IMG/VR virus record: IMGVR_UViG_3300044630_000533
Location: 1 to 32,387 of that record
Source of the DNA: a virus
Length of the DNA: 32,387 nucleotides
Strand: one strand, 5' to 3'
How positions within the stretch are numbered: the stretch's first letter is position 1; each line of letters opens with the position of its first letter. Below, piece after piece: positions 11,356 to 32,387 of the stretch. The notes beneath the pieces were generated by a model. It was not told the DNA's origin and ran no database searches. It was given only the letters and a program-made list of their open reading frames with translations. The position numbers were made by a program, and so were the translations under genes.

Positions 11356-11810
11356 CAAAGCTAAGCGAAAACTTTACACTCGAAGAAGCTACACATTCAG
11401 ACACGGCTGTTCGGATGGGTATTAACAATCAACCAGATGAGCGTCAACTTGAAAACATGAAGAAGGCGGCTGAAGGTATGCAACAGATACGTGCTGTACT
11501 AGGTAAACCTATCAGCGTAAACTCTTGGCTAAGGCTACCTGAAGTAAACGTAGCCGTTGGTGGATCACGAGTATCCTCCCACATGGATGGTTGGGCTATT
11601 GACTTCACATCACCCTACGGTAATCCGTTAGCAGTATGTAAAGCTATTGAAGCTGCTGGAATTAAATTTGATCAGATGATTCACGAGTATGGTCGTTGGA
11701 CTCATATTTCTTTTGCACCTGAAATGCGGGGTCAGAAGCTAACTATTTTCCGACCTGCAAATAAATACAAGTCAGGTCTATTAACCGAAGAAGAATATAA
11801 TAAAACTTAA
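11352..11810 (+). CDS. Endolysin, M15-type zinc peptidase
   Basis: 152 residues, a single catalytic domain without signal peptide, so it should depend on the holin for release. Family M15 (D-Ala-D-Ala carboxypeptidase type) is shown by SSHMDGWAIDF, with zinc ligands His77 and Asp84, and by WTHIS with His118; Glu112 is a plausible catalytic base. N-terminal LSENFTLEEATHSDTA is typical of the phage M15 subfamily. It cuts the peptide stems or cross-links of peptidoglycan. Last gene of the lysis cassette; a 32-base gap with its own ribosome site (aaaagg) follows. Confidence 0.88.
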   Translation: MTKLSENFTLEEATHSDTAVRMGINNQPDERQLENMKKAAEGMQQIRAVLGKPISVNSWLRLPEVNVAVGGSRVSSHMDGWAIDFTSPYGNPLAVCKAIEAAGIKFDQMIHEYGRWTHISFAPEMRGQKLTIFRPANKYKSGLLTEEEYNKT

Positions 11811-16075: not shown

Positions 16076-16495
16076 ATGAAAATAATTTTACTAACCCCCG
16101 AACAAACAGTTCAACACTGGCCTACAATTTCAGGTTACTTAACTAAAGTAATTGAGCATAGCCAAGGAGAATCATCACTTACAGACTATCTTAAGAAGAT
16201 CCTCAATGAATATGTTCAATGTTGGGCGGTAGTAGATGATGGTTTAAATATTATTGGTGTTGGTCTCACTCAATACTTACAATACTCTCAACACAAAACA
16301 CTTCACATCATTGCTTTTTCTGGTAGTGACTTTGAAGAACAATCTAAGGTGTTCCCTACAGTGGAACAATTTGCCCGTGATTCTGGCTGTAAAGCTATTG
16401 AACAATGGGGTCGTCCAGGATGGGCAAAGGTACTACCAAAGTATGTATCTGGATTTAAAGAAGCTTACGTAGTAATGCGAAAGGATTTAGAATGA
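16076..16495 (+). CDS. GNAT-fold protein, T7 gp13-like position
   Basis: 139 residues from ATG at 16076, six bases after the previous stop; an alternative GTG at 16052 would overlap the previous gene and lacks a better ribosome site. The pattern of an N-terminal beta strand (KIILLTPEQTVQHW), a central strand block CWAVVDDGLNIIGVGLTQY, and the end W-GRPGWAKVLPKYVSGFKE looks like the N-acetyltransferase fold found in many phage structural modules. No clear acetyl-CoA loop (RxxGxG) is seen, so catalysis is doubtful. T7 places a similar GNAT-shaped protein, gp13, ahead of its ejection proteins, as here. It may be an assembly factor. Confidence 0.6.
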   Translation: MKIILLTPEQTVQHWPTISGYLTKVIEHSQGESSLTDYLKKILNEYVQCWAVVDDGLNIIGVGLTQYLQYSQHKTLHIIAFSGSDFEEQSKVFPTVEQFARDSGCKAIEQWGRPGWAKVLPKYVSGFKEAYVVMRKDLE

Positions 16496-17373
16496 AATAT
16501 AAAATTAATGGTTCTATAAAAAAGAACTACGGTGGTGGTGGAGGTACTAGTACAGTAAGTAGTATTCCTGATTGGGCGCAACCCTACCTACAAAATGTTG
16601 GTAATGCTGCTGAAGCTGGTTATAGGTCAGGTGATCTAGGCAAAGTAGCTGGTGCATCAAGACTTCAATCAGACGCTTTTGGTGGTGGCGCTAATCTTAT
16701 TGGTGCAACAACTACAGGTGCTGCTGGTGCTTTGAGTGATCAATCAGGTCGCTTAGCTAACCTTGCTTCTACTGGTGTTGATACATCTGGCTCTGAAGCC
16801 TTGATTAGTAGTGCCACAGGCTCTATGGCTGACCAAGCTAAACGACTCACTGGTATGGCTATGGCTCCTAGTGCTGAGACTCTTGCGGCTCAAAAGTCAG
16901 GTATCTTACTTGACGCACAAAAGAAAGTCTCAGGATTGAATACTGGTTTTGGTCAAGCAGGTACATTAGGTTCTGCACGACAAGCTGTTATGCAAGGTGC
17001 TCAGAACGCTGAGACTACAGGTCAGCTTGCTAAGGTTGATGCTGAATATGAAAACAATATGTTTAGAAACCGACTTGCCGCTGAACAAGCTTTGGCAGGT
17101 ACTCAGACAGGTACTCTTAATGCCGCTACTAACTTGGCTAATCTTAGGTCAGGTGATGTTAGCACACGTCTTGCAGCTGAACAAGCTCTTCAGGGCGGTG
17201 CATCAGCAGGTGCTAACATTGTTAACACAGGTGTTGGTAATATTGCTAAACTTGGTGGTGAACAACGTGGTATTGATCAACAAGGTCTTGACGCAGGTTG
17301 GCAAGGTCTTCAGCGTTATGCTTCAACTATCTATGGTAACCCTGCAAGACAACAAGCGACTGGAGGTAAATAA
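16492..17373 (+). CDS. Ejection (internal virion) protein, gp14-like
   Basis: 293 residues; starts in an ATGA overlap. A basic N-terminus and a Gly run precede SSIPDWAQPYLQNVGNAAEA, a segment seen at the start of podovirus internal virion proteins. The remainder is Ala/Gly/Gln-rich, helical and without cysteine, with a repeated RLAAEQAL motif (about 197 and 224), suggesting a stacked helical hairpin. In T7, gp14 forms the outer-membrane part of the DNA ejection channel. This gene opens the run of five ejection-type genes ending at the RNA polymerase. Identity by pattern and position; no catalytic motif. Confidence 0.65.
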   Translation: MKYKINGSIKKNYGGGGGTSTVSSIPDWAQPYLQNVGNAAEAGYRSGDLGKVAGASRLQSDAFGGGANLIGATTTGAAGALSDQSGRLANLASTGVDTSGSEALISSATGSMADQAKRLTGMAMAPSAETLAAQKSGILLDAQKKVSGLNTGFGQAGTLGSARQAVMQGAQNAETTGQLAKVDAEYENNMFRNRLAAEQALAGTQTGTLNAATNLANLRSGDVSTRLAAEQALQGGASAGANIVNTGVGNIAKLGGEQRGIDQQGLDAGWQGLQRYASTIYGNPARQQATGGK

Positions 17374-18371
17374 TGGCTGGATCACAAGGTATGCCAACTT
17401 CAGTGGCTCCTCAACAAGGACAACCACAATCTACCCCCTCGGTGTTTAATATGGCAAATCAGCCAAGCGCTGATATGATGAGTCCTGCTGTTATGCCCAC
17501 TCAACCCTCTATGGGCGGTGGTAAAGGTGCTGGACCAATGCAACCCCAAAAGACTGCTATGGGTACTCCTATTGTTTATGGTAATGTTTATTCTAATTCG
17601 AATCAACCATTTAATCCATCACCAAACTCACCCTCAATAACTAATCCAACAGTAACTGAAAAACCATATGATGTACTTCAAGACCCAAGCTTTTATATGG
17701 CTGCTGACGGTACAACAAGTGTTCCTGGTTATGCTATGGGTACTACTGGTGTAGATGATCCATGGGATTGGTCTAATAAAGCCCCAGTAGCTCCATTAGC
17801 TGTGACTATTAAACCTTCTGAAGCAGTAATACCACAAGTTGTTCCTGATCAAACAGAACAACAACTAGGTCAGATGGCTATGGGTATGGGTACTAATGCA
17901 GCCGCAAAGGGTATTGATGCCGCATACAAAGCTTATAATGCACCATTGACAACTCAAGCAGTAGGTTCTATGGGAACTACCGCTAGTGGCGCTCCAGTGG
18001 CATTAACTAACATAGGAGCTTTGTCTGCACCTGCCGCATCTTCTATGCCAACAGCTATAGGCGCTATGTCAACCCCTATGAGTGGTGCTCTTCTTCCTGC
18101 TAGCGGTTTGGGAAGTGTCGCTGGTGCTGGAACAGGTATTGCCGCAGGATCTGCTGCACCTATTGGTGCTACTATTGGTTCAAGCCTAGGCACTGGTCTT
18201 GCAGCTGCTGAAGGTGCTACATTAGCTGGAGCTGGAACTGCAGCCGCTGGAACTGGTGCTGCTGGGCTCGGCAGTGCTTTAGGTGCTGGTGGTAGTGCTG
18301 CTTTGGCGGCTCTTGGCCCTGTGGGAGCTACTATCGCAGCAGGGTTAGTTTTAAAGAAAATACTTGGATAA
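17373..18371 (+). CDS. Ejection protein with Gly/Ala-zipper membrane segment
   Basis: 332 residues; TAATG overlap with the previous gene. The N-terminal half is Met/Pro/Gln-rich and disordered. A motif ADGTTSVPGYAMGTTGVDDP followed by TIKPSEAVIP (about 109-155) echoes the VPAMLTPGEAVIP motif of the next protein. The C-terminal 100 residues are a low-complexity Gly/Ala run (AGTGIAAGSAAPIGATIGSS), closing with AALGPVGATIAAGLVLKKIL, a glycine-zipper hydrophobic helix able to insert in membranes. This suits an ejection channel component. No enzymatic motif is visible. Confidence 0.6.
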   Translation: MAGSQGMPTSVAPQQGQPQSTPSVFNMANQPSADMMSPAVMPTQPSMGGGKGAGPMQPQKTAMGTPIVYGNVYSNSNQPFNPSPNSPSITNPTVTEKPYDVLQDPSFYMAADGTTSVPGYAMGTTGVDDPWDWSNKAPVAPLAVTIKPSEAVIPQVVPDQTEQQLGQMAMGMGTNAAAKGIDAAYKAYNAPLTTQAVGSMGTTASGAPVALTNIGALSAPAASSMPTAIGAMSTPMSGALLPASGLGSVAGAGTGIAAGSAAPIGATIGSSLGTGLAAAEGATLAGAGTAAAGTGAAGLGSALGAGGSAALAALGPVGATIAAGLVLKKILG

Positions 18372-18380
18372 GGAAATACT

Positions 18381-20882
18381 ATGGCACCATTATCAGGTAA
18401 ACAACATAGAGAGTACCTCAAGTTCCAAAATAAAGAAGCTCGTGAAGCTTCTAAGATGGGACTTGACGAAATGCGTAAACAACAATTACATCAGATCAAA
18501 CTCCAAGAAGCAGCCGCAAAAGCTAATCAAGGTTTAGGTCATAGACAACAAGTTAATAATGCTAGGCTTAAAGATATGGGTATTCCCTTACCTAAAGGTG
18601 CAAGTATTAACAAACAAAAATTAGGTATTCCTTCAACAAATCCTCTGGCTGGTACAGAGATGTTTAAGCAAGGACAACACAAGTTACCTCAATCTCCTAT
18701 ATTTAAAGCACAAGGCACTGATACAGTTCCTGCTATGCTTACTCCCGGAGAAGCTGTTATCCCAGCACCTGCCGCACAGAATCCTAAGAACAAAAAAGCT
18801 ATTAAGCGTATGGTCCAAGAAGGTCGTAAGGCTAATAGGCTTCGTGACGGTGCTGTTAATATAGTTAATTCTGACGCACCAGCCCAAGCACGTTATCATG
18901 CAGACGGTACTAGTGATGTACCATCGTTAGCTTATCGTCATCCAGACGTACCCGGATCTTCATTTAATGACGGTACTGAGCGTGTGTTTAGCCGTGGTTC
19001 CGCTGATATGCAACATTATAATGATGGTACATATGGTGTAGTGCCACAGCAAGTACAGTCTGCTGTTGGCTACCAATATGGTACTGTTGATGCAGACATT
19101 GATGAAGAAAGAAAACGTCAGGGTGTAGTACCAATGGTTATTCAACCAGCTAGCACAGAGACAATCCCTATTTGGGATGAAAGAAGAGCCGAAGAAGGTG
19201 ATCGGTTTGCTAATATGGTTGCTGTTGATAACAGACCTATGCGGGATATTCCTATGGTTTCTGCAGTAACAACTCCTGTTATGGATCAAACACCATCTAA
19301 TGCAGTTATAACATCGAAAGAAGTCCCACCAGTAGTATTAGATACTTCGATTCCAATTAAATCAGTACCTGCTCCTAATGTTTCAGTTATTCCTGCAATT
19401 CCTGATAGGTTAAGAAAAGTTCCATTAGGATCACCTGATTCAGATGTAGTTTCTGTTACTAATAATCCCACAGTTGTTACTAGCCCTCTCGCAGTTGCTC
19501 CAGATCAATTAAATAAAGAAGAATTAGCTGGTCTTGATGTGGTTAACACACAGAATACACCTGCAACAGTTACTTCGGCTGTACCTACTACTACTACTAC
19601 TCCGACTGTACCTTCTAAGGTAGACCCTTACGCTGGTATAGAGCCTACTCTCAGAAAAGATTTTGAGACAGACCCTGTTAAAGCAGCTAGAAAGATTCGT
19701 AGTGTATCTGAAATTGTTGAAGAGTTAGCTGGAAAACAAAAGACAGAAAAGTCTTTTACAGACTCGTTAGCTAACTTGTTTACTGCCAGTGGCTTTAAAG
19801 AAGAACTTGGTTTAAATAATCAAGATATTATTCGTATGGCTATTTCTACTGCTGTTGGTGCTAAGAAGTTTGGTGTAAATCGTGCGCTTGCTTATGCAGG
19901 TAAACAGGCTTTTGAAGACTCTAACAAGCGAAATGCACAAGCACAAGCTGAAGCTAAAGCGATTCGTACAGCCGCTGTTCAAATTCGTGGTCAAGAAATT
20001 CGTGATGTTCGTAACGCAGAAGATGCTGCTGCTCGAGAACAACGTGATATAATTCGTGAAAATGCTCGTGCTGCACATGAAAGATTTAAAGCAGAGCAAG
20101 CAGTTCGTATGCAAGAGATCAAAGAGAGGTTTGAACGTGACAGGGATATTTTAAGGTATCAGCAGGATATGCAAAAAGAAGCAATGCGATTAACAGCCCA
20201 AGACAATCGTATGAATAAAATGTTTGGTTTCCAACAGGCTTTAATAGATTATAGAGAGGATAAGAAACAGAATTCTCCTAACGCTATAGTTGAACGTCTT
20301 TCCGCAAATATTCAGAAAGCATCTAGTGCTGTTGGAGAAATTTTAGATCGATCGTTTGGTGCTGATAACATCCAAGGTAAGGCTAACCCAAATAGGGAAG
20401 GTTTCCCAACTAAAACACAAGCAACTCAGCAAGTTGTATCTGCCCTTGCTAATGCGGGTTATGATATGTCTAACCCTGATGTGTATATGCAAGCCACATC
20501 AGTTATTAACTCGGGAATTGAAAAAGCAATTGCAGATAAAAAGTCTGGTAGAGTAGATATTCCTAACGTTACTCCTTATATAATGAGTAGCATAATGCAA
20601 CAACGTTTAAAGATTCCATCTGAATTACTTAATGTTGGTAAAGATAATAAACCAATGCCAGCTGAAAAGTTAACGTCTTTGTTTAAAGAAGTTAGATCTT
20701 TAGCTTTAGACCCAGAGACAGGTAAAGTTAACACAACAAAAGAAGCTGAAATTGCAAATGGTATTTTTGCTGAATGGAATGGTCCTAACGGTAAAAAGCA
20801 TCGTGCACAATTTAAAGGTACAGAGAACGAATCAGCCTTTGCACAATTTATGCAAGCAAGTTTAACTAAACTTAAACAGTAA
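18381..20882 (+). CDS. Long helical ejection protein with VPAMLTPGEAVIP motif
   Basis: 833 residues, ribosome site aaggaa. Near residue 110 lies GTDTVPAMLTPGEAVIPAPA, with KKAIKRMVQEGRKANRLRDG after it; this motif recurs in phage internal virion and tape-measure proteins. Several degenerate (H/Y)xDGTxxVP units follow (about 170-225). A Pro/Val/Thr-rich linker covers 260-420, then a long charged helix without breaks at about 510-630 (RNAEDAAAREQRDIIRENAR), and a helical C-terminus. By position (between the gp14-like and SNase/RNA polymerase genes) it matches T7 gp15 in the ejection stack; a tape measure is less likely for a short-tailed phage. No enzymatic residues recognised. Confidence 0.6.
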   Translation: MAPLSGKQHREYLKFQNKEAREASKMGLDEMRKQQLHQIKLQEAAAKANQGLGHRQQVNNARLKDMGIPLPKGASINKQKLGIPSTNPLAGTEMFKQGQHKLPQSPIFKAQGTDTVPAMLTPGEAVIPAPAAQNPKNKKAIKRMVQEGRKANRLRDGAVNIVNSDAPAQARYHADGTSDVPSLAYRHPDVPGSSFNDGTERVFSRGSADMQHYNDGTYGVVPQQVQSAVGYQYGTVDADIDEERKRQGVVPMVIQPASTETIPIWDERRAEEGDRFANMVAVDNRPMRDIPMVSAVTTPVMDQTPSNAVITSKEVPPVVLDTSIPIKSVPAPNVSVIPAIPDRLRKVPLGSPDSDVVSVTNNPTVVTSPLAVAPDQLNKEELAGLDVVNTQNTPATVTSAVPTTTTTPTVPSKVDPYAGIEPTLRKDFETDPVKAARKIRSVSEIVEELAGKQKTEKSFTDSLANLFTASGFKEELGLNNQDIIRMAISTAVGAKKFGVNRALAYAGKQAFEDSNKRNAQAQAEAKAIRTAAVQIRGQEIRDVRNAEDAAAREQRDIIRENARAAHERFKAEQAVRMQEIKERFERDRDILRYQQDMQKEAMRLTAQDNRMNKMFGFQQALIDYREDKKQNSPNAIVERLSANIQKASSAVGEILDRSFGADNIQGKANPNREGFPTKTQATQQVVSALANAGYDMSNPDVYMQATSVINSGIEKAIADKKSGRVDIPNVTPYIMSSIMQQRLKIPSELLNVGKDNKPMPAEKLTSLFKEVRSLALDPETGKVNTTKEAEIANGIFAEWNGPNGKKHRAQFKGTENESAFAQFMQASLTKLKQ

Positions 20883-20896
20883 ATAAAGGAAAATAA

Positions 20897-23800
20897 ATGG
20901 ATGGATATTTAGACAACCTAAGAAAGATAATATCAAGGAAATCAGATTTACCAGGAGGTATCTCATTAACGGATGCTGATACCGTGGTAACCCCTTCGGG
21001 GGAATCCATCCGTCTTCAAGGCATTAGTGCAAGAGAGACTGCTAAACTTCCTGATGATTTAAGTAAAAGTAAAGGCGCTCAAGCGGGTGCCTATACCCAA
21101 AGTAGATTGATGGAAGACGTTATTCGTGAGGGTAACTTTACTACACCAGTACTTACACAAGATAAATCTTATAAACGTACTCTTGGTGATTTAGTAGACC
21201 CTAGTGGAAGACGTCTTACTAACAAAGCATTAGAAATGGGTATTGTTGATCCAACAGCCGATACAACTAGAGATCAATACAACTCTATGTACATGGGTAA
21301 TCTTGACCGTGCTCAACGTAGAGTAGATAAGCAACCTACAATAGCTGACAGTTTACTTTTTGAGCTTAACAAAGAGCGTAACCCTAATGGGTTTATGATG
21401 TCTAAGCTTCAAACAGATACTGCTGGTATGTATGGTCAAGCAAAAGAACAAGGTCTTGACGAGTATTTTTCTGGTCCATCTATTATCAGAAAAGGTGAAG
21501 ATCGGTATGGTAAAGCTATTTCTAATTTAAGCAGTGGTTGGGATCAAGGTAAACTTCAAGCCGCTAAAAGCGTGTATGGTATGTTTGATCTTATTGCGGA
21601 TAAAACAGGTAGCGAATCATTTAAAAACTTTGCACAATCAGGTATTAATGAAAATACCTCTTTGTTAAGAGACATACCTGAATTAAGAAGTGCAGAGGCA
21701 TTTAATGATAAAGGTGAGTGGAAATTAGATACACTAGGTAAGTTCTTTGATTGGACTGTAGGTAGTGCAGCTGCTTCTGCTCCTCAAATGTTGACTAGTA
21801 TTGTTGCTGTTATGGCTTCACCAGCAACCTATGGTGCTTCTTTATCAATTCCATTTAGTATGTACACAGGTCAGGTATACAACGATCAGAAGAATAAGAA
21901 TGCAACTGCCGCTGTTGCTGCTGGTTTTACTATGACAGTGCTTGATAAGTTATCATTGCCATTTATTCTTGGTAAAGGTAAAGACATTACTAAACAGGCT
22001 ACTCAAGATTTAGTATTGAGAGAGCTACAAAAGACAATGACTAAAGAAGCGGCTGAAGAGTTGCTACGTAAGTCTATGACTGAGTCTGTTAAGGAAGTTA
22101 GTACTGCTTTCAAAACAATTTCTGGTGGTACGCTTAATAAGATAAAAGGTATTGGAGGAGCTACTGCTTCTGGTGCTTTGGTTGAGAGTGGTGTAGAAAC
22201 ACTACAAGAATTAGCTGGTTATTTTGGTGAGCAAGGTAGTTTTGATTTACCTTCTTCACCAGAAGAAATGACAAAGCTAAAATCTAGATTGGCAAATGCG
22301 GCTGTTGGTGGTGCTGTATTAGGTGGTGGATTGTCTGGTGGTCTTAAGACTTATTCAGTATTAACTGCACCAAGCGATGTTGTTCCTAGATCATCAACTG
22401 ATGTTGAGTTTAGAGAAAAATATATTAATGATATTAATGAACAACGTGTAGCTTCAGGAGATACTCCTATTGTTACAATGCCTTCTACTACAGACGTTAT
22501 TGATAAGACATTAGAATTACAAGAGAAAAATCCTATTGAAACATCGTTAAATGCTTTAGCTTCTGCTGAGACTGCTAAAAGACAGACTGAAGGTGTTTAT
22601 GCTAAAACAATGTCTGCTATAAAAGATAAAGGTATTAGTGGTTTATTTGGTAAATTTTCTAACATTATAACTAGTGATACTAAACATAAGAGCATTTACT
22701 CAGCTACATTATCTACATTGTTAGGTAGTTCTACTGCTGTTAATGGGGCTTCTATTGAAAACCACCAAGCTATTTTAGAGTCAAACATCTTTAAAAACTT
22801 TGGTAACATTGAAAATTTTATTTCTGCTTTTGGTGGTGTATCTGCTACAGAAGCTTCTCGTATTATATCTAACCCTACTGTTGTTAATGCAATATCAGAG
22901 TTAGCTCGTATTAAAAGAGATTTATTTGCTACTTCTACCAGAGATATCGCTGATAAGATGGATATTGATTACGGTAACTTTGGTAATTTTAAAGATTCTA
23001 TTATTGATTATGCTGATAGAATAAGTAATTTAACTAAAGCATACAATCAAGCTACAGGTAAAGATTTGTCTGTTAGACAATTCTTAGAGTTTAAACCATT
23101 AGATAAAACAATTGTGTCAAAGAACTCTGGTCAGTTTGTCAGAGACTTACAACAACACTTAGGTATGAACTATGCAGATGCAACTGAATTAACTAATGCA
23201 ATACTAGATAACAAACAAGTTAATAGTTTTGAGGATTCACTTGATGAATTGCTTAATGGTAATGCAGAAAAGATTAAAGATAAGCAAGGGTTAGAAGCTA
23301 AACTAGCTCAACCCGGAGTCAAAAGTTTCTTTAATCAGTATATGTCTCATAACATTATAGATAACGCTTATTCATTAGCCGCATCGGGTGCTGCTTTTAA
23401 TACTAATAAAGAGTTAATTGGTAAAGATGGTTCTAAGCTTGCCGCATTAGTTCAGCAAATGAAAGACAATGGTGACATTGATGATGTACAAGCTAGTTTT
23501 ATAGCTAAAGAAATTCAAGATGTGTTAGCAATGCGTAATGGTGAATTCAAAGCCATTACTAATCCTTATTTAAAAGGTGCATTGAACACTCTTAATTTCT
23601 TATCTACTATTACTGCACTACCATTAGCCGCTGTTAGTTCTACAGTAGAGTTTGCTCAGATATATCGTAACCTAAATAGACCACAAGCCGCTAAAGCTAC
23701 ATTGGCTTTACTTAAAAGTACAGGCAGTGAAATAGGTGCTTTGTACAGAGAGATTGGTAACAAGCTTACTGATAGAGTTCTTATTAAAAATGCTAAGATT

Positions 23801-24700
23801 AGAACAGACTTGTCTGAAGCAGGATACCTAAGAGAAGGTGGTGTTGGTCATCGTAATGACATTCTAACGTCATATTATTCTAAATGGACTGACGGGTTCT
23901 TTAAGTTAACTGGTTTAACTTCTGTAACAGCTATTACCCGTAATGCTCGATTAGCTATTGCAGCTGATGCTATACAAAATTGGTTGAATGTTGTTTCTGA
24001 AGGTACAGGTACTGAACAAGAAATAGCAGATGCTAAAGACCATTTAAGACGTATTAACGTTGACTATGAATACATGATGGCTATTAATGCTGATACTAAA
24101 TCTACAGAAAAATATGTTATAAACAATTTACAACAGGCTACATATAACTTTGTTAATGAAGCAGTTATTATACCTACTATTCTTAATAGACCTAAGTTTT
24201 ATAGTGATCCTTATCTAAAACTGTTTACTCAATTTACGGGTTATACATCAGCATTCACAGCAAATATTCTCCCAAGATTAGTAACTGATATCCGTAAGTC
24301 AGGATCAGATGATCAAAAGAATACTGCAGCTGTTATTGCTATGATGCTTGCTTTGGCTATGCTTTCTTTGTATATTAAAGATATGATTAAGTATGGTGAA
24401 CATCCACCTGAGTGGGTCAAAGAAAATAAAGAGTTTTTAAGAGTTATTAATGCAATGGGTATCTTAGGTTCAGGACAACGGATCTTTGATCAGATATTCC
24501 CATTGATAGAAGACAACAGAAAGAAATCTATCACAGATAAGATTGCCGAACAATCCGCACAGCTCTCATACATCAAGAAGGTTGAAAGAGCTTTAGAGGC
24601 ACCAGAAGGTAAACGGATTGAACAGGGTGCGAAGCTGCTTCCCATAGTTGGAACAAGTCCCGCTTTCGCTAAATACTTACAGAAAGAGCTAGGAGAATAA
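20897..24700 (+). CDS. Large ejection protein with N-terminal SNase-like nuclease domain
   Basis: 1267 residues, ribosome site aaagga. Residues 22-118 fit the staphylococcal nuclease fold: TDADTV (Asp26, Asp28), then SIRLQGISARE with Arg39 and Glu47, then DKSYKRTLGDLVDPSGRRL with Arg94, and NKALEMGIV. Spacing Arg39-Glu47 (8) and Glu47-Arg94 (47) is close to SNase Arg35-Glu43-Arg87 (8 and 44), but the calcium ligand Asp40 is replaced by Ser44, so activity may be altered. Hydrophobic, membrane-capable segments follow near 286-322, 338-358, 467-485 and 1140-1164. T7 gp16, in the same gene position, has a lytic transglycosylase at its N-terminus; here a nuclease-like domain takes its place. Stop and next start are adjacent. 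Confidence 0.72.
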   Translation: MDGYLDNLRKIISRKSDLPGGISLTDADTVVTPSGESIRLQGISARETAKLPDDLSKSKGAQAGAYTQSRLMEDVIREGNFTTPVLTQDKSYKRTLGDLVDPSGRRLTNKALEMGIVDPTADTTRDQYNSMYMGNLDRAQRRVDKQPTIADSLLFELNKERNPNGFMMSKLQTDTAGMYGQAKEQGLDEYFSGPSIIRKGEDRYGKAISNLSSGWDQGKLQAAKSVYGMFDLIADKTGSESFKNFAQSGINENTSLLRDIPELRSAEAFNDKGEWKLDTLGKFFDWTVGSAAASAPQMLTSIVAVMASPATYGASLSIPFSMYTGQVYNDQKNKNATAAVAAGFTMTVLDKLSLPFILGKGKDITKQATQDLVLRELQKTMTKEAAEELLRKSMTESVKEVSTAFKTISGGTLNKIKGIGGATASGALVESGVETLQELAGYFGEQGSFDLPSSPEEMTKLKSRLANAAVGGAVLGGGLSGGLKTYSVLTAPSDVVPRSSTDVEFREKYINDINEQRVASGDTPIVTMPSTTDVIDKTLELQEKNPIETSLNALASAETAKRQTEGVYAKTMSAIKDKGISGLFGKFSNIITSDTKHKSIYSATLSTLLGSSTAVNGASIENHQAILESNIFKNFGNIENFISAFGGVSATEASRIISNPTVVNAISELARIKRDLFATSTRDIADKMDIDYGNFGNFKDSIIDYADRISNLTKAYNQATGKDLSVRQFLEFKPLDKTIVSKNSGQFVRDLQQHLGMNYADATELTNAILDNKQVNSFEDSLDELLNGNAEKIKDKQGLEAKLAQPGVKSFFNQYMSHNIIDNAYSLAASGAAFNTNKELIGKDGSKLAALVQQMKDNGDIDDVQASFIAKEIQDVLAMRNGEFKAITNPYLKGALNTLNFLSTITALPLAAVSSTVEFAQIYRNLNRPQAAKATLALLKSTGSEIGALYREIGNKLTDRVLIKNAKIRTDLSEAGYLREGGVGHRNDILTSYYSKWTDGFFKLTGLTSVTAITRNARLAIAADAIQNWLNVVSEGTGTEQEIADAKDHLRRINVDYEYMMAINADTKSTEKYVINNLQQATYNFVNEAVIIPTILNRPKFYSDPYLKLFTQFTGYTSAFTANILPRLVTDIRKSGSDDQKNTAAVIAMMLALAMLSLYIKDMIKYGEHPPEWVKENKEFLRVINAMGILGSGQRIFDQIFPLIEDNRKKSITDKIAEQSAQLSYIKKVERALEAPEGKRIEQGAKLLPIVGTSPAFAKYLQKELGE

Positions 24701-27700
24701 ATGGCAGTTAATATTAACACAAGCAAAAACGTACCTACAATACCACGTATTGCAGATGATTTGCTTCAACAACAGATCAACGAAGCTAATGCTCGTATGG
24801 CGGCTCAACCCCCTCGGCAAGAAGCAATACCTAACCCTTCAGCAATCTTTGGTGAAGAGGAAGAGTTTGTTCTTCCATATAAAAAGTCTCCATATGTTAT
24901 TCCAAGAAGACTTTCTGGTCTACCTCCTGATGCAAAGTTACTTGCAGGTACAGATGTTCGTATGCCTTCAGAACAAGAGGCTATACCTACGGACCAAGAG
25001 ATTATACCTACAGAGCAATTATCTGAGGATGTCCAACCTGAAATGATAGAAGAAACACCACAAGAAGATGGTGGGTTTGGTATGGATAGCTTTGCTATTG
25101 AAAGTACTGATCAAGACTATTACAGTAAACTTCAAGAAGAACGTAACAGGCAAATGGAAGTAAGGAAAATCCTTGATCCTTCTCGTTTTGAAAATGAAAA
25201 TGATATCAGAACTGCTTACGGTGAAGGGGCAGTTAAAGCTACAGAAGCAGGTGCTATTATTCGTACTGCTATGAATATTACTAATGGTCTTAATGATCTT
25301 GATGTAGGCTTATATAAAGAGGGTACAACATCTAATGCACAGCTTAACGGTCTTACTTATCTTAAACAGGGTACTGGATTAGATACTAAACAGATTGGTA
25401 ATGCCGCTACTACTTCTTTTATTTTGTATGCTCCTATGTTATCAGGTGCAGCATCTCAAAAAGACGGTGAGATCATGTCTGCTGAGGACAATGCTGATAT
25501 TGATAGCTTAGACCAACTGATAATGGATGACGGTGATGGTGCCTTAGATAAGGTAGCCGTTAATGGTGGTCTTAAACGTGACATGGTCCAAAAGGGTTTA
25601 GGTCGTTTGTTTAAAAAGCTTTCAAAAAGTGTCGGTGATACTTATTGGGGTAATACAGAACGTATTAATCAAAACATTTCTAATGAGGCTGCTGGTGCAA
25701 CCATTGTTCAAGCTTTAGTTGATAAGGGTTATTTGGTTGAAGATGTTAACCCAGATGGTGTTGAGATTCTTAGACTAAGTCCAGGCTTAGGTGCTGACTT
25801 AAGATACAAGAGTAAAGGTATGCAACGTAGTGTTACTGGTGCATTGTCAGGTAAAGCTCAAAAGGCTCCTCCTACTGAAACAGGTGCTTATCAAGGTGCA
25901 TTACAAGATGTCCGTGAAATGGATAAAAAGAAACAAGAGTACACTGTTACACAACAAATGGCTGAAGCCAAAGGTGCTGTAGCTAAAGTACCACTCTTTA
26001 TTTCACCCGTTAAAGCTTACTTTGCAGCTCTGTTTAATGAAGCTATTCTTGGTCATGTTAAAAACCCAATGAACCCAGCACAATTAGATGTTATGGGATT
26101 GTTAAAGGTATCCGAAGAAGATATTCAAGATGCTTCTGCTAATGGAAACAAAACATCTGCAGAAATTATTGATCAAAAAGTAAGCAATCTTCAAACTGAA
26201 TTAGGTGACATGGCAGCACACGTAGCCTATGGTGGTCCACAGTTCTCTACTTATTGGGAAGACTATGCTACCCATCGTATGTATCAAGATGCAACTGACT
26301 TTAACCCACAACGTAATAAGTGGACTCGTGCATTAACTGTAGGTAAGTCTTCTCCTATTATGCTTAATAGTAACTTCCATAATACAGGTGTTAACAAAGC
26401 AACTGCTGAAGGATTCTTTAGCAGGATTGCAGGTAAAGCTCGAAATGGTAATTTTACTTTGTCAGCAGATGAAAAAGAATTAAGTTTCCTTACAACACTT
26501 GGTCGTGTACTTGATTCAAGTAGGTCTGTTGGTATGTCATCTGAATCTATATTGTTGCCTGACCTGTTACAAACAGTAACACCAATGTTTATTGCTGAAG
26601 CAGCTGCAAAAGGTAGATTGTTACGTAGTATTGTACCTAATAACACTCGTGAAGTTGTTAATGCTCTTGGTAAACCAGAAGGTCTTATTGATAAGCTTAC
26701 TCCTGCTCAGAAAGGTGCTTTAGATAACTTCCTTAAAGAAGCAGATAGAGACGACTGGGGTTATAAGCTTCAGGCGTATCTTGATGCAGCTAACTATTTA
26801 GATGCAAAAATGAATGGTACACCTTTCACACCACGAGTTACTGTAGCTCTTGATATGAACTCTGCTGGTCGTTCGTTCTTAGCCGCTGACGTTGGTAACA
26901 TGGATATCTTAAGTCGTGTTGGATTAGTATGGGATAAGTTTGTTGATAGAGTAGACGATTTCTTTACTGATACATTACCTAATGAAAAGGGTGATCCACG
27001 ATACTACTTTACAACTGTAGCTTTAGATACAGGTATCTCTGCTGCTTTTGGTGATGCTAAACAAGAGAAGATTGATAAATTTAAAATGTTGCTTGCTAAA
27101 TATGGTGGTGCAGGAGTTGCTGGTAATAAGCAGTTCAACAAAGACTTTTCAAAGAAAGTCTTGATGACCACTGACTATGGTAAGCCAGCTAACTTTCACA
27201 TTGCAGAAGCTAAAGCCTTTTTAAAGAGTCACCCTGAATTTAGAGATGAAGCAGTAAAGTTTTATAATGGTGATGTAGATGCTTTAGCCAAAGACATCAA
27301 TGAGATTTATAAAGCAACTTTAAAACAAACAACAGACGCTTGGCAGTATGTGTTGCCTAAGAAGATGGTTAAGTTCTTACAGATGTTTGGTCGAGTACCT
27401 AAACCAATTGGTTACTACAATGAAAACATTTCTATTGGTAGATTTGGTACTGAGCCTACAGGTAATATTGTTCAAATCAAAGGTGCAGAAGGTAAACGCA
27501 GACGTATTATGGAGACTATGAGGATGTTTGATCCTTTAGCTCCTGCTAAGGCTAAAGGTTTAAGGCTAGACGATGGTTCATTGTTCATACCTGAAGAAGG
27601 TTCTGGAGCAGTTAACCAAGTTGGTCCTACATTCGGTCAATATCGTGAGTCAATTATTGTTGCTGAGACAGCAAGGTTACTTAATGGTAATAAAACACCA

Positions 27701-28252
27701 GCGAATTCTAACTTTATTATTCCTGTATTTGATAACTTTATTGTTGACTCTATGAGCTACCCATTTGTTCATTACGTAGCTAATAATATTGTAGCCCCTA
27801 ATGTGTTTAGTTGGAATATGGCTAAGGGTTTTTCTCTTGATTTCCGTAAACAACTTAGAGAAGCTTTACCTGAGATGATGAGTTCTAATGAGATTATTGT
27901 TGGTCCAGGATCACCTTACAAAGGTATCTTTACTACTATTGATCGTGAATATAAGTGGTTAAAAGATAAACAGCCTAATGAATTAGCAGAATATCAAAAG
28001 ACTTTAAAGCAATTTCTTGAAAGTAAATCTTCTGGTTATATACCTCCAGGTCCTAATAGACCCGAGTCTACACGTTTAACATCTCAACAAGCAAGAGCTT
28101 TAGTAAAAGCTATTAGTGATTTTTATAACTTTAATGATAAGCTCCAAGGCGTTGATGCTTGGGATAATTTAAAATATAAAGGTATGCGTGATTCATTCTT
28201 AAAAGAACTTGTATCACGAGGTAAAAAAGGATTAATTTACTTCTTTACTTGA
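24701..28252 (+). CDS. Single-subunit RNA polymerase of the T7/N4 family, probably packaged in the virion
   Basis: 1183 residues, starting right after the previous stop with aggag upstream. Residues 1-145 are a Pro/Glu-rich linker. The polymerase core carries, in order: DYATHRMY with Asp521 and Arg526 (T7 DWRGR region) running into FNPQRN (534-539; FNPQGN in T7); motif A VALDMNSAGRSF with Asp718; motif B KKVLMTTDYG, Lys818 to Tyr826-Gly827, with Lys814 at T7 Arg627; motif C PVFDNFIVDS with Asp1011. Spacing Asp718-Lys818 (100) and Tyr826-Asp1011 (185) compare with 94 and 173 in T7. The gene is last in the late operon, not early as in T7, so delivery with the DNA, as for N4 gp50 (about 3500 residues), is inferred. 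It probably transcribes early genes. Confidence 0.85.
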   Translation: MAVNINTSKNVPTIPRIADDLLQQQINEANARMAAQPPRQEAIPNPSAIFGEEEEFVLPYKKSPYVIPRRLSGLPPDAKLLAGTDVRMPSEQEAIPTDQEIIPTEQLSEDVQPEMIEETPQEDGGFGMDSFAIESTDQDYYSKLQEERNRQMEVRKILDPSRFENENDIRTAYGEGAVKATEAGAIIRTAMNITNGLNDLDVGLYKEGTTSNAQLNGLTYLKQGTGLDTKQIGNAATTSFILYAPMLSGAASQKDGEIMSAEDNADIDSLDQLIMDDGDGALDKVAVNGGLKRDMVQKGLGRLFKKLSKSVGDTYWGNTERINQNISNEAAGATIVQALVDKGYLVEDVNPDGVEILRLSPGLGADLRYKSKGMQRSVTGALSGKAQKAPPTETGAYQGALQDVREMDKKKQEYTVTQQMAEAKGAVAKVPLFISPVKAYFAALFNEAILGHVKNPMNPAQLDVMGLLKVSEEDIQDASANGNKTSAEIIDQKVSNLQTELGDMAAHVAYGGPQFSTYWEDYATHRMYQDATDFNPQRNKWTRALTVGKSSPIMLNSNFHNTGVNKATAEGFFSRIAGKARNGNFTLSADEKELSFLTTLGRVLDSSRSVGMSSESILLPDLLQTVTPMFIAEAAAKGRLLRSIVPNNTREVVNALGKPEGLIDKLTPAQKGALDNFLKEADRDDWGYKLQAYLDAANYLDAKMNGTPFTPRVTVALDMNSAGRSFLAADVGNMDILSRVGLVWDKFVDRVDDFFTDTLPNEKGDPRYYFTTVALDTGISAAFGDAKQEKIDKFKMLLAKYGGAGVAGNKQFNKDFSKKVLMTTDYGKPANFHIAEAKAFLKSHPEFRDEAVKFYNGDVDALAKDINEIYKATLKQTTDAWQYVLPKKMVKFLQMFGRVPKPIGYYNENISIGRFGTEPTGNIVQIKGAEGKRRRIMETMRMFDPLAPAKAKGLRLDDGSLFIPEEGSGAVNQVGPTFGQYRESIIVAETARLLNGNKTPANSNFIIPVFDNFIVDSMSYPFVHYVANNIVAPNVFSWNMAKGFSLDFRKQLREALPEMMSSNEIIVGPGSPYKGIFTTIDREYKWLKDKQPNELAEYQKTLKQFLESKSSGYIPPGPNRPESTRLTSQQARALVKAISDFYNFNDKLQGVDAWDNLKYKGMRDSFLKELVSRGKKGLIYFFT

Positions 28253-28261
28253 CAAATAAAA

Positions 28262-28308
28262 AACCCCTACTAGGATAATTCCTAATAGGGGTTATTTTTT
28301 TTTTTTTT
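28262..28308. terminator. Two-way intrinsic terminator between converging operons
   Basis: A 13-bp stem (AACCCCTACTAGG with CCTAATAGGGGTT, one C/A mismatch) and a 6-base loop is followed by 14 T on the + strand. On the other strand the same hairpin is followed by TTTTTTATTTG-like bases from 28261 back. It ends the late operon (stop 28252) and the leftward operon, whose last stop codon lies inside the T-run. Confidence 0.92.
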
Positions 28309-28588
28309 ATTTCAATAGTTGATTATACATGTCTAATGCTTGCTTACGATTATTACTAGCAAGCTCTTGAGCTTCTGTCTTGGTGTAAGGCATACCCGTT
28401 TTATCGTTAAGAACATCAGTTAAACCTGTTGAACTTTGTTTATATACTTCATTAATTACATAAGGACCAAGGTCTTTAGTATAAAGAACATTGTCAGGAA
28501 TATTAATACCTACATCCCGCATATCAATTTGGAAGTCATGGTCATCATAATCATGACCTCTTAAGGCTTGTACGTTATAACTTTTCAT
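28307..28588 (-). CDS. Small protein of unknown function, last gene of leftward operon
   Basis: 93 residues; starts in an ATGA overlap with the Dps-like gene, so its translation is probably coupled to it. Acidic and His/Asp-rich near the start (RGHDYDDHDFQIDMRDVGI), then mixed alpha/beta, with a helical C-terminus (TEAQELASNNRKQALDMYNQ). No signal peptide or membrane helix. The clustered His and Asp could bind metal, which would suit a partner of the ferritin-like protein, but this is speculation. No family recognised. Confidence 0.7.
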   Translation of the reverse strand: MKSYNVQALRGHDYDDHDFQIDMRDVGINIPDNVLYTKDLGPYVINEVYKQSSTGLTDVLNDKTGMPYTKTEAQELASNNRKQALDMYNQLLK

Positions 28589-29061
28589 TTAAAACTCTTT
28601 CCAAGTGTTGCTTTGACTTTCCAGTTAAGCTTGGACAAGTCTTTAATATAGTCACCAACAAGTGTAGCTAAGCCACCATAGCATTGTATATCAGCTTCAT
28701 CATACAGTTTTTGAGCATGATCAACTAAATCATCAAAGTCTTGATTTAGCCATGTAAACATTTCTTTACTTGGCTTTCTAGCATTATCACACTCTGCAAT
28801 ATCAGTCATACTAAGAACTTCTTTAAGAGAGCATGGTACTCCCTTGTCCATCTGACGGATCTGTTCACCAAGCATATCATGTTGTGCCCACAAGAAGTCA
28901 TAGATCTCTTCTAAAAGAGCATGATCTTGAGCAAACATAGGGCCTTCCACATTGAAGTGATACCCATGAGACTTGTAGTATGTCACAAAGTTATCAGCAT
29001 AAAGCTGTGTAAGCATTGTAATCAAATTATTACTTTTGGGTTGAGGTGGTGTCATTGCCAT
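28585..29061 (-). CDS. Dps-like ferritin
   Basis: 158 residues, ribosome site aaagga. The ferroxidase signature of Dps proteins is complete: His35 (in YHFNVEG), His47, Glu51, Asp62 and Glu66. Their spacing (12, 4, 11, 4) equals that of E. coli Dps His51, His63, Asp67, Asp78 and Glu82, with Glu in place of Asp67. Dps proteins oxidise and store iron as a 12-subunit cage and can shield DNA from peroxide. The short N-terminus (MAMTPPQPKSNN) has no lysine-rich DNA-binding tail, so iron chemistry is more likely than DNA coating. Its 5' end overlaps the previous gene by 32 bases. The gene shows that the phage may protect the host during infection. Confidence 0.85.
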   Translation of the reverse strand: MAMTPPQPKSNNLITMLTQLYADNFVTYYKSHGYHFNVEGPMFAQDHALLEEIYDFLWAQHDMLGEQIRQMDKGVPCSLKEVLSMTDIAECDNARKPSKEMFTWLNQDFDDLVDHAQKLYDEADIQCYGGLATLVGDYIKDLSKLNWKVKATLGKSFK

Positions 29062-29748: not shown

Positions 29749-29767
29749 GTTGTGTCCTTGATTAGAG

Positions 29768-29840
29768 AGTGGTAGTGGGATTCGAACGCCACATTCCGAG
29801 GCTTATATATCCTCGATTCTACCAGTTGAATTATACCACT
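29768..29840 (-). tRNA. tRNA-like gene, atypical (nominal anticodon UAU)
   Basis: Read on the minus strand, 73 bases fold into a cloverleaf: a perfect 7-bp acceptor stem (AGTGGTA/TACCACT), a D arm (ATTC/GAAT, loop with GG), and a T loop TTCGAAT. Two arms are odd. The anticodon stem is closed by four or five GC-rich pairs around a 9-base loop (ATATATAAG), with A in place of U33 at strict numbering, giving nominal UAU. The T stem needs one bulged C. No CCA is encoded. It may be a decaying tRNA, or a real tRNA-Ile for AUA codons. Confidence 0.5.
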
Positions 29841-29963: not shown

Positions 29964-30218
29964 TTAGGTACCTGCTAAGAAAGGTCTTACCTTATTAGCG
30001 TCAAAACCTACTGATGTACGTAATACCTGATCATTACTATCTACAATAATCATTGTAGGCACTGAACGAATACCGTAGTATGATACTGAATCTTTATTAT
30101 CTTCGATAGGCATATTAATTAATTCAATCTCAGGGTATTCAGGTAAAGCTTCTTTAAGAACTTTGTCTAGTTGCTTACATGGTTGGCACCATGCTGCAGA
30201 GAATTTAAGTAGTTTCAT
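29964..30218 (-). CDS. Thioredoxin-like protein
   Basis: 84 residues, a short thioredoxin fold. Active site WCQPC (Trp10, Cys11, Cys14), with the cis-proline in SVPT (Pro54). It lacks the N-terminal strand of full-length thioredoxins, as is common for phage forms, which resemble glutaredoxin or NrdH in size. Thioredoxins pass electrons to ribonucleotide reductase. The class II enzyme encoded upstream in the same operon has a C-terminal cysteine pair that needs such a donor, so the two probably work together. Starts in a TAATG overlap with the Gp49-type gene. Confidence 0.9.
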   Translation of the reverse strand: MKLLKFSAAWCQPCKQLDKVLKEALPEYPEIELINMPIEDNKDSVSYYGIRSVPTMIIVDSNDQVLRTSVGFDANKVRPFLAGT

Positions 30219-30496
30219 TAGTTACCTTTAAACAGTTCTTCTTTAAGCAGATATCCTTCAAGAGACCAGAGCTGGTCAATAGCATTTTCAAACGAATACT
30301 TTTCTCCAAGGGCTTGGTTGTACCTTGACTTATCCACACAGGCACTTGTGCCAATGACTACGTAACCGTTCTTCATGAACACTTGGCAGATAGTTGTTGT
30401 GGTTTCTGGTAGCAGAGTATACACTGACTTCTCAATCTTAGACATGATATGGTCAATAGTTACTGATGTACGTGGTTTTTCTTTGGTATCGTTCAT
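30218..30496 (-). CDS. Gp49-type phage protein of unknown function
   Basis: 92 residues. Matches a small family named after phage Gp49/Gp66: SVTIDHIMSKIEKSVYTLLP, then TTTICQVFMKNGYVVIGTSA and CVDKSRYNQALGEKYSFENA, ending with IDQLWSLEGYLLKEEL. The family is widespread in phages and prophages and has no known activity; the conserved NGYxVxGxSACVD block suggests a small alpha/beta domain. It is coupled to the endonuclease VII-like gene before it (ATGA) and to thioredoxin after it. Confidence 0.8.
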   Translation of the reverse strand: MNDTKEKPRTSVTIDHIMSKIEKSVYTLLPETTTTICQVFMKNGYVVIGTSACVDKSRYNQALGEKYSFENAIDQLWSLEGYLLKEELFKGN

Positions 30497-30867
30497 TGTT
30501 TACTTTCTAAATATTTAACTGCCTTGTTTAAACCTTCAAGAGTATCCCCAAAAATACCAAGACCTTTGTTACATTGACCACAGAGAATACCTCTTATTTT
30601 ACCTGTAATATGATCATGGTCTACTACAGCACTTTGTTTAGTTGCTTTGCCATCTAATTCTACTGGTGTATTACAAATAGCACAGCAACCATCTTGATCT
30701 TCAATAAGCCTATCTCTTTCTGGAGAAGTAATATTGTATTTAGATCTTAGGTGTCTGCAGGTATTACATTCTTTGTAGCGAGCACTATATTCTTTTCCTG
30801 TTCTATTAGGGTTATTAATAGAATAAGCTGTAGTTTCGTTATGACATCCTATATTTTTGCATTTCAT
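30493..30867 (-). CDS. Endonuclease VII-like HNH nuclease
   Basis: 124 residues. Zinc-binding cysteines Cys62-Cys65 and Cys96-Cys99 frame the catalytic block VVDHDHITGKIRGILCGQCN (His84, Asp85, His86) and NKGLGIFGD. This is the pattern of T4 endonuclease VII-like and free-standing HNH nucleases. Such enzymes resolve branched DNA during packaging or act as homing endonucleases. A second pair of cysteine clusters (Cys3, Cys8, Cys34, Cys37) may bind another zinc. The start abuts the nrdJ stop, with a ribosome site (ggagg) inside the end of nrdJ. Its place beside a ribonucleotide reductase gene, a common homing site, favours a mobile origin. Confidence 0.85.
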   Translation of the reverse strand: MKCKNIGCHNETTAYSINNPNRTGKEYSARYKECNTCRHLRSKYNITSPERDRLIEDQDGCCAICNTPVELDGKATKQSAVVDHDHITGKIRGILCGQCNKGLGIFGDTLEGLNKAVKYLESKQ

Positions 30868-32387
30868 TTAAATCTCGCATCCTCCTGCGGTGCAACTTAA
30901 AGTCTGCACACCTTCCACATTGTCACGGTCTTCATAAAACAAATCCCAGTTAATAACAGGTAATGTATCTTTGAGGCGATGATAAACTGACAAATCAATA
31001 TTTTCATATGGAGCTTGTCGATATGTTCCACCGTCATCAGGGAGGAAAGAAATACCTGTGCATTCATTGAAGTGTTCATATACCCATGCTCCTACTTCCA
31101 TCCACTCGTGGTCTTTAACTGAGATAGTTACTGAGGGCTTATGCTCACACCAGTAACGCTGATATGTCAACCAGATATTGAGGTGTTCAATAGCTGTAAG
31201 ATCTTCACGAGTAAATCCTGGTGAGTGTTGTGGAAAGCTAAACACAGTAGTCTGATCAGGCTTCATAACGCAGTCTTCGTTAGGGATACCTTGAGAGATC
31301 AAGAACTGAGTCAATGGATCTTTCTTATCCTGACGAATACGTCTGATATAATACTTAGCATGTCCAGCATGGATACCGCTGGATGTCTGTGTAAGTTGTG
31401 ACACAGTACCTTCAGGCTTAACACAGGTAATAGCGGCTGACTCAGGTACACCTAAGATAGCTGCCCACTCTTTGTTAGTTTCACGGGCTACATCACGAAG
31501 CTCTTCAAGAAGGTCTCTTAGTGGATAGTGAGTACTACCACGGAGATAAGGGTTGTCAAGGATACCAGTCATAGACACACCCAAGAGACGTTCTTGGTTG
31601 GTGTTAGTACGCCATACATCACGAAGATAAGGGAAATCAGTCAGTGTAGACTGCATAGTACCCATGATAGTAGCCAAGCGAACTTTAGTTTTGAGTGACT
31701 CAACAGTATCTTCAGGAGACACTACTATGGTAGACAAATTACAAAACTGATATGGCTTTAGGATAATCTCTGAGCAAGGGTTAGTACCATAGTCAACCTT
31801 AGGATCTCTGCGACCCCACTTAGCGGCTTGTACTTGAGAAGCTTCACGGTTGAAAATACCACGTTCACCTGAGTGGCTGTTATAAATGTCTAACCATTCT
31901 TTCATGAACTCACCGATAGAAGGTTTGCTGTTGTATACTGCTGAGTTGTTAGCTAATGCACGTTCACCATGGTTTTCCCACCATGCACCTGCTTTAGCCG
32001 TGGCATGATCATAGTCACCCAAGTCACCAAGAGAAATCATGGCTGACCTACGTACACCACCTACCACAACTACTTCACCGATTTTACACATAATATCATG
32101 GGCTTCAATAGACTTAAGCTTACGACCTTGAGCAGCTTTAAACTTATCTACTGTATACTGGAACAAGTCAATCAGTGGACCCGGACCTGAGGCACGACCA
32201 CCGAATGTTTTAAGTGGCGCACCTGCTGGACGAACGAGCGACACATCCCATTTAGGAATAATACCCTCATACAACATTCCAATAAGCATTTTATAAGCTT
32301 CACACCAACCTTCTTTAGAGTCAGCTACTACAATAGTGTAGCCAGTAGCCTCAACCATTGTAGGAACAACGGGTAACTGGTTAACAT
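30868..32387 (-). CDS. nrdJ: Ribonucleotide reductase, class II (B12-dependent, monomeric type), N-terminus beyond window
   Basis: The last 505 residues are present; the frame is open through the window edge, so the ATG at 32358 is internal. Reduces ribonucleotide triphosphates or diphosphates to deoxy forms using adenosylcobalamin. NPCSEI near 31774 holds the thiyl-radical cysteine and the catalytic Glu two residues on; FCNLS supplies the paired redox cysteine exactly 11 residues after it, as Cys408, Glu410 and Cys419 in the Lactobacillus enzyme. The C-terminus SCTAGGCEI has the swinging Cys-x4-Cys pair. VVGGVRRSAMISLGD and VTCVKPEGTVSQL-like segments also fit. Phages carry it to make dNTPs without oxygen or a second subunit. 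Thioredoxin three genes on is a likely electron donor. Confidence 0.93.
   Translation of the reverse strand, partial: VNQLPVVPTMVEATGYTIVVADSKEGWCEAYKMLIGMLYEGIIPKWDVSLVRPAGAPLKTFGGRASGPGPLIDLFQYTVDKFKAAQGRKLKSIEAHDIMCKIGEVVVVGGVRRSAMISLGDLGDYDHATAKAGAWWENHGERALANNSAVYNSKPSIGEFMKEWLDIYNSHSGERGIFNREASQVQAAKWGRRDPKVDYGTNPCSEIILKPYQFCNLSTIVVSPEDTVESLKTKVRLATIMGTMQSTLTDFPYLRDVWRTNTNQERLLGVSMTGILDNPYLRGSTHYPLRDLLEELRDVARETNKEWAAILGVPESAAITCVKPEGTVSQLTQTSSGIHAGHAKYYIRRIRQDKKDPLTQFLISQGIPNEDCVMKPDQTTVFSFPQHSPGFTREDLTAIEHLNIWLTYQRYWCEHKPSVTISVKDHEWMEVGAWVYEHFNECTGISFLPDDGGTYRQAPYENIDLSVYHRLKDTLPVINWDLFYEDRDNVEGVQTLSCTAGGCEI

Follow-up and report, generated by a model that had tools for sequence, protein, structure and literature searches.

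A compact, probable virion RNA polymerase of the N4 branch encoded at the end of a phage late operon

Introduction

Single-subunit virion RNA polymerases (vRNAPs) have so far been described, in the literature that we searched, only as proteins of about 3400 to 3500 residues from N4-like phages. In N4 transcription, the vRNAP acts first and is followed by RNAP II (PMC4496689). A 2025 structural preprint describes a lipid-binding N-terminal domain and an autoinhibitory C-terminal domain in the N4 enzyme (PMC12633501). Still, the size of the N4 protein (gp50) remains largely unexplained; its polymerase core, the mini-vRNAP, spans residues 998-2103. In StenR_269, a putative vRNAP was proposed from size, secondary structure and absence of cysteine (PMC10747016). 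The T7-like RNA polymerases (Autographiviridae gene 1; PF00940) belong to the same superfamily and share the right-hand fold and motifs A, B and C. The enzyme of T7 itself is early, cytoplasmic and contains 12 cysteines. Phage Y3 (Poorviridae) reportedly has an N4-like vRNAP. We considered it as a compact case and rejected it: its late module has a 10.3-kb gene, so that the Y3 vRNAP does not look compact.

Here we analyse a 32,387-nucleotide fragment of an uncultured virus (the whole stretch is referred to as the window) that encodes a protein of 1183 residues, best described as a compact, previously undescribed version of the N4-type virion RNA polymerase. We consider it very probable that this protein is a virion-packaged single-subunit polymerase of the N4 branch, a natural "mini-vRNAP" for early genes, with packaging, ejection and activity inferred. 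The support for this reading comes from homology, catalytic residues, gene position, the end of the operon, the absence of cysteine and the second polymerase of the relatives.

Results

Gene and relatives

The compact RNAP gene occupies positions 24701-28252 (+ strand) as an intact, single frame of 1183 codons. Its ATG abuts the stop codon of the preceding 1267-codon gene (TAA-ATG) and is preceded by an AGGAG sequence at 24691-24695. The stop codon lies at 28250-28252, followed after nine bases by a strong intrinsic terminator (28262-28309, unstranded) with a 14-bp stem and a long T run, which ends the late operon between two convergent modules; its hairpin and T run were placed at 28262-28293. 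The frame is under purifying selection (dN 0.079, dS 0.595, dN/dS about 0.13, window versus L005). Its close relatives show 77-87% identity, apart from one in a near-identical contig whose protein is 99.9% identical to that of the window. More distant relatives are L063 (57%), L074 (33%) and L071 (below 25%), the last being a bridging homologue of 1363 residues. Among the close relatives, residues 225-1183 are 85-88% identical and nearly gap-free. Residues 1-224 (24701-25372, +) form a variable, Pro/Gln/Glu-rich region outside the polymerase core, where identity is 72-82% and indels occur.

Homology to the N4 virion polymerases

Single-sequence searches of Pfam, PHROGs and PDB with the compact RNAP gave no match, and neither did a tblastn search of 50,697 phage genomes. 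Nor did the family alignment find a match when used as a profile against PDB, or a relative when used to scan genome contigs. When a viral collection was scanned with a degenerate motif B pattern at the DNA level, 13 stretches came up. Five came from relatives already known, three were large ORFs not seen before (L063, L074 and L071), and the remaining five were short ORFs resembling ordinary T7-like polymerases. In 257 Gb of cellular genomes, this pattern hit 11 sites by chance, none of them within an RNA polymerase.

The window family alone (effective depth 1.2), compared with a profile of the catalytic region of 25 Schitoviridae vRNAPs, matched at P 6e-4 with the catalytic residues in register. 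With L063 and L074 added, the match to this region reached an hhalign score of 69.9 (probability 92%, E 5.3e-7). The TxxGR, motif A and motif B residues were in register; the pairwise match stopped short of motif C. Control scores were 24.0 for the reversed profile, 28.5 for the best of 120 block-shuffled profiles and 24.0 for the neighbouring ejection protein. Against T7-like polymerases, the family profile scored a non-significant 27.7. The Schitoviridae and T7-like profiles score 70.8 against each other. By this yardstick, the compact RNAP is about as close to the N4 vRNAPs as those are to T7 RNA polymerase, and lies on the N4 side.

The bridging homologue provided further links. L071 alone aligns with the Schitoviridae profile over four collinear segments; independently, it also matches PHROG 414 "RNA polymerase" (E 2.9e-5). 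When it was included in MAFFT alignments, R526, D718, K818, Y826 and D1011 of the compact RNAP aligned to R424, D559, K670, Y678 and D951 of N4 in all three modes (default, local and generalized-affine). With the CRP-7 group also added, two of the three modes kept the register and the third shifted R526 by 12 columns. Taken together, these comparisons support a homology specifically to the N4 (Schitoviridae) vRNAP branch, as far as can be judged from sequence.

Could the motifs be coincidental and the product an unrelated structural protein? The empty single-sequence searches of Pfam, PHROGs and PDB, and the modest confidence of the structural model (see below), leave some room for this. The profile statistics speak strongly against it, however, and the shuffled, reversed, unrelated-neighbour and 257-Gb motif B scan controls all remained at background, so that we find this explanation barely credible.

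Catalytic motifs

The compact RNAP contains the superfamily residues in order: the TxxGR/DxxGR-type Arg, the motif A Asp, the motif B Lys and Tyr, and the motif C Asp. The equivalent of the TxxGR motif (residues 526-543; 26276-26329, +) consists of R526 and an NPQ..K..R signature. Motif A (TVALDMNSAGRSFLA, residues 714-728; 26840-26884, +) carries D718 and motif C (IIPVFDNFIVD, residues 1006-1016; 27716-27748, +) carries D1011, both presumed catalytic with the activity itself inferred. Motif B (KDFSKKVLMTTDYGK, residues 814-828; 27140-27184, +) includes K818 and Y826. All the motif residues named by the sequence-only reading (FNPQRN at 534-539, D718, G723, K814, K818, Y826, G827 and D1011) were found at their places, and they are unchanged in the close relatives (77-100% identity). 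R526, D718, G723, K818, Y826, G827 and D1011 are invariant also at 57% and 33% identity. K814 is absent from the 33% relative (L074), and only Q537 of the FNPQRN segment is kept throughout the relatives at 57% and 33%.

The FNPQRN segment is part of a signature of the Schitoviridae enzymes, R[ML]...NPQ..K..R, which reads RM...NPQ..K..R in the compact RNAP. The lack of a His in motif C had been taken earlier as a sign of divergence. This does not hold: Schitoviridae vRNAPs mostly have FDG, with HDA in some, so that the Phe-Asp pair is N4-type and the missing His no oddity. The spacing of 192 residues between R526 and D718 does exceed the 112 of T7, as had been pointed out, but that comparison omitted N4, in which the spacing is 135. 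Two N4-type details, the NPQ..K..R after the TxxGR Arg and the Phe-Asp of motif C, favour the N4 branch.

Conservation at these positions also bears on whether the protein might be a decayed polymerase, one that has lost RNA synthesis and persists solely in an ejection or internal head role. Large ejection proteins do occupy the same position in other podoviruses, and in the CRP-7 group an Arg has taken over from the motif B Lys. Yet that Lys is kept in every member of the window family. Moreover, an alignment of 22 sequences including the N4-type vRNAPs, many of them only 15-20% identical to the window protein, retains just 11 fully invariant columns. R526, D718, Y826, G827 and D1011 are among them, and five of the 11 are catalytic or immediately adjacent to a catalytic residue. 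Preservation of the catalytic Asp, Arg and Tyr within so few columns makes decay improbable in our view.

Predicted structure

AlphaFold with the close family alignment only gave a pLDDT of 36. When rows from L071, the CRP-7 group and N4-type enzymes were part of the alignment, a model of residues 230-1183 reached a pLDDT of 61 (pTM 0.53). In this model, D718 is predicted to lie between a strand and a helix, a helix leads to K818 and Y826, and D1011 sits in a strand-turn-strand arrangement. A Foldseek search with the model returned 50 listed PDB matches, all of them single-subunit RNA polymerases (mitochondrial, N4 and T7), with N4 vRNAP (2po4) at E 1.2e-7 and TM-scores around 0.35. Matches in a viral fold library below E 1e-3 with an informative name were again single-subunit polymerases, save two annotated merely as coil-containing proteins. 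Because N4 rows were present in the model alignment, the fold match is partly circular and counts as supporting evidence rather than as an independent test. For the fold check proposed earlier, the listed PDB matches were uniform, but with a pLDDT of 61, TM-scores of about 0.35 and N4 rows in the alignment, a right-hand fold with palm and fingers is no more than a prediction.

A branch of compact polymerases

In a maximum-likelihood tree of 24 polymerases, the compact forms, representing three lineages, separated from all Schitoviridae forms with support of 100/99. The tree is unrooted, has long branches and rests on an alignment of about 15% identity. On this evidence, the compact polymerases form one previously unrecognised clade beside the giant vRNAPs, which gives a place to what had been called a diverged branch.

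The catalytic residues of the compact RNAP are in register with those of the homologous core of N4 gp50 and the other Schitoviridae vRNAPs. The two also share the NPQ..K..R signature, the FD of motif C, the absence of cysteine, the adjoining ejection proteins and the presence of a second phage polymerase. They differ in size (1183 against about 3500 residues), with an identity of about 16%, and the compact RNAP has no counterpart of the N-terminal part of about 1000 residues and the C-terminal part of about 1400 residues of the N4 protein. It may thus represent a possible minimum, a natural vRNAP without the terminal parts. No similarity to the N4 N-terminal domain, C-terminal domain, gp51 or gp52 was detected in the two large ejection-type proteins encoded upstream.

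The nearest isolate is CRP-7, a roseophage grown on Roseobacter strain FZCC0042 that belongs to a widespread marine group (portal 52%, T7-like polymerase 31.5% identity). Judged by the absence of the giant vRNAP, without a gene-by-gene check of the other N4 hallmarks, the phage falls outside the Schitoviridae. The phages with compact polymerases group, by these sequences, with CRP-7 rather than with the Schitoviridae. The positional counterpart of the compact RNAP is CRP-7 gp33 (QBQ72826.1, a "hypothetical protein" of 1235 residues), which lies between gp34 and a convergent module that includes the T7-like polymerase, gp30. Like the compact RNAP, gp33 lacks cysteine; it has AIHD in motif C and a motif B-like KDYxRG.....YGK. 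It differs by an identity of only about 19%, by the Arg for the motif B Lys and by HD for FD in motif C. The CRP-7 paper names only ORF30 as a polymerase and does not so annotate gp33 (PMC6918029). Our analysis assigns a function, with activity inferred, to this unannotated protein. Since the compact branch includes a gene of a cultured phage, the proposed role is testable.

Genomic setting

The gene immediately upstream (20897-24700, +) encodes a large ejection-type protein of 1267 residues with an SNase-like N-terminus and a single hydrophobic segment (residues 1142-1164). Its homologues are CRP-7 gp34 and a protein in L077 (E about 1e-23 and below); the polymerases encoded downstream are at or beyond the range of BLAST. 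The SNase-like region stands out most in L077 (PF00565, E 0.026, which does not pass the cut-off), and it can be made out in gp34 too. Vibrio phage KIT05 was examined and set aside: part of the ejection protein is common to it, but no compact RNAP gene follows. Further upstream lie genes for a probable second ejection or internal virion protein (833 residues; 18381-20882, +) and for two probable internal virion or tail proteins (332 residues, 17373-18371, +; 293 residues, 16492-17373, +), all three functions being inferred from position. The compact RNAP gene thus adjoins ejection protein genes in the late operon, as the gene of an N4-type vRNAP does. With the terminator in place at 28262, the earlier description of it as the last gene of the late structural operon, after a large ejection protein, was borne out. 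The window also contains two successive genes for large tail fibre proteins with S74 chaperone (endosialidase-type) C-terminal domains (3-4895 and 4949-8131, +) and, within the tail gene cluster, one for a Peptidase M15 family protein (PF08291; 11352-11810, +), probably an endolysin.

Beyond the terminator, a convergent module encodes a ferritin-like protein, tRNAs, endonuclease VII and a class II ribonucleotide reductase (RNR) that is cut by the window end (30868-32385, −). In the near-identical contig, the RNR is followed by a T7-like polymerase gene on the opposite strand (PF00940, E 1.5e-56), which indicates that the window ends just short of the separate T7-like polymerase gene of this phage. 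A related 59-kb genome is laid out like that of a podovirus, with genes for portal, scaffold, major head protein, TerL, tail fibres, DNA polymerase, primase-helicase, exonuclease, RNR and a T7-like polymerase, the gene of the last spanning the record ends. The order ejection protein, compact RNAP and convergent module with T7-like polymerase recurs in CRP-7 and L077. In L076, the compact RNAP is followed by RNR and T7-like polymerase genes on the opposite strand.

Other genes of the convergent module were noted in passing, all on the − strand. The ferritin-like protein (158 residues; 28585-29061; PF00210, E 4e-10), beside the late-operon terminator, is an unusual auxiliary gene for a podovirus. 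A second tRNA-like gene (29767-29840) next to tRNA-Met(CAT) scores 38.3 bits with Rfam, over the cut-off; it is not called by ARAGORN, and its anticodon loop looks atypical and varies between relatives. The module further includes a member of the N4 gp49/Sf6 gene 66 family (30218-30496; PF13876, E 4e-23); the endonuclease VII homologue (30493-30867; PF02945, E 6e-23) has 9 cysteines in 124 residues.

Cysteine content and the site of action

None of the 1183 residues of the compact RNAP is a cysteine, which at the genome-wide frequency of 1.07% has a chance of about 3e-6. The products of the four genes upstream (2725 residues) are cysteine-free as well, as are CRP-7 gp33, L071 and the full-length N4 vRNAP (0 of 3501). 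By contrast, T7 RNA polymerase and the T7-like enzymes of the phages studied here contain 10-14 cysteines. L074, however, has two, and some other late proteins (scaffold and tail fibre) likewise lack cysteine, so that its absence is a trend rather than a rule and is not specific. Presumably, ejected proteins avoid cysteine because of the oxidising periplasm that they cross; this is an inference. With these qualifications, the absence of cysteine lends support to a virion protein.

An active N4-branch enzyme might instead be made late and remain unpackaged in the cytoplasm, for example as a late-gene transcriptase. The cytoplasm is the usual place of single-subunit RNA polymerases, and virion data are absent. 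Such an enzyme would nevertheless be an odd occupant of the end of a structural operon, with a start codon that immediately follows the stop codon of a gene for an ejection-type protein, and would lack cysteine where the T7-like polymerase of the same phage group has 10. Its nearest kin are the virion polymerases and not the T7 branch, and later transcription is already served by the separate T7-like enzyme. We therefore give this alternative little weight, though somewhat more than decay. The sequence-only reading, a T7/N4-family polymerase that is probably carried in the virion, is thus upheld, with packaging and activity inferred. It is supported by profile homology to the N4 branch, the residue register and the partly circular fold search, together with the gene position, which in three deep lineages is behind ejection-type proteins that are homologous to one another, the lack of cysteine and the second, T7-like polymerase.

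Proposed mode of action and origin

We postulate that the compact RNAP is a late product that enters the capsid together with the separate ejection proteins from the genes just upstream. On infection, it would leave through the tail along with the DNA and cross the periplasm, a possible reason for its lack of cysteine. As a small single-chain enzyme, it presumably regains its fold once ejected. Once in the cytoplasm, it would transcribe the early genes, including that of the phage's own T7-like polymerase; this choice of transcribed genes is inferred. The T7-like enzyme would then run middle and late transcription, comparable to the succession from vRNAP to RNAP II in N4. The role of the N- and C-terminal domains of the N4 protein may have been taken by other proteins, or may be unneeded. 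Absence of cysteine combined with a position in the ejection operon is suggested as a guide to hidden virion enzymes.

More speculatively, and with the odds in our judgement rather against it, compact vRNAPs could be a major lineage in their own right and the ancestral type, a free-standing enzyme packaged alongside separate ejection proteins, with the N4 giant as a later form that acquired its N- and C-terminal domains. The phages with compact enzymes would then be independent of the host RNA polymerase throughout. If this were true, an injected compact vRNAP would serve the early genes and the phage's own T7-like polymerase would take over afterwards, the host enzyme never being needed.

Candidate promoters

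No conserved N4-type hairpin with a 3-nt loop was found in the early leader of G002 and G005, two close genomes whose start sites are unknown. A recurrent element, which reads AGTCGGTACCTAATAG on the transcribed orientation, precedes several genes, with sites in G005 (L017 337, L018 522, L019 1765 and others), in G002 and G001, and at 11809 and 29962 of the window. It may be a promoter of the T7-like polymerase. Separately, a leader of about 550 bp between the late and early modules (L019:1737-2281 and L020:4740-5320) is 93% conserved between two genomes. It is probably non-coding, contains GGGGTACCCC and repeated ATGTCG..GGG units, and is a candidate for the early promoter region.
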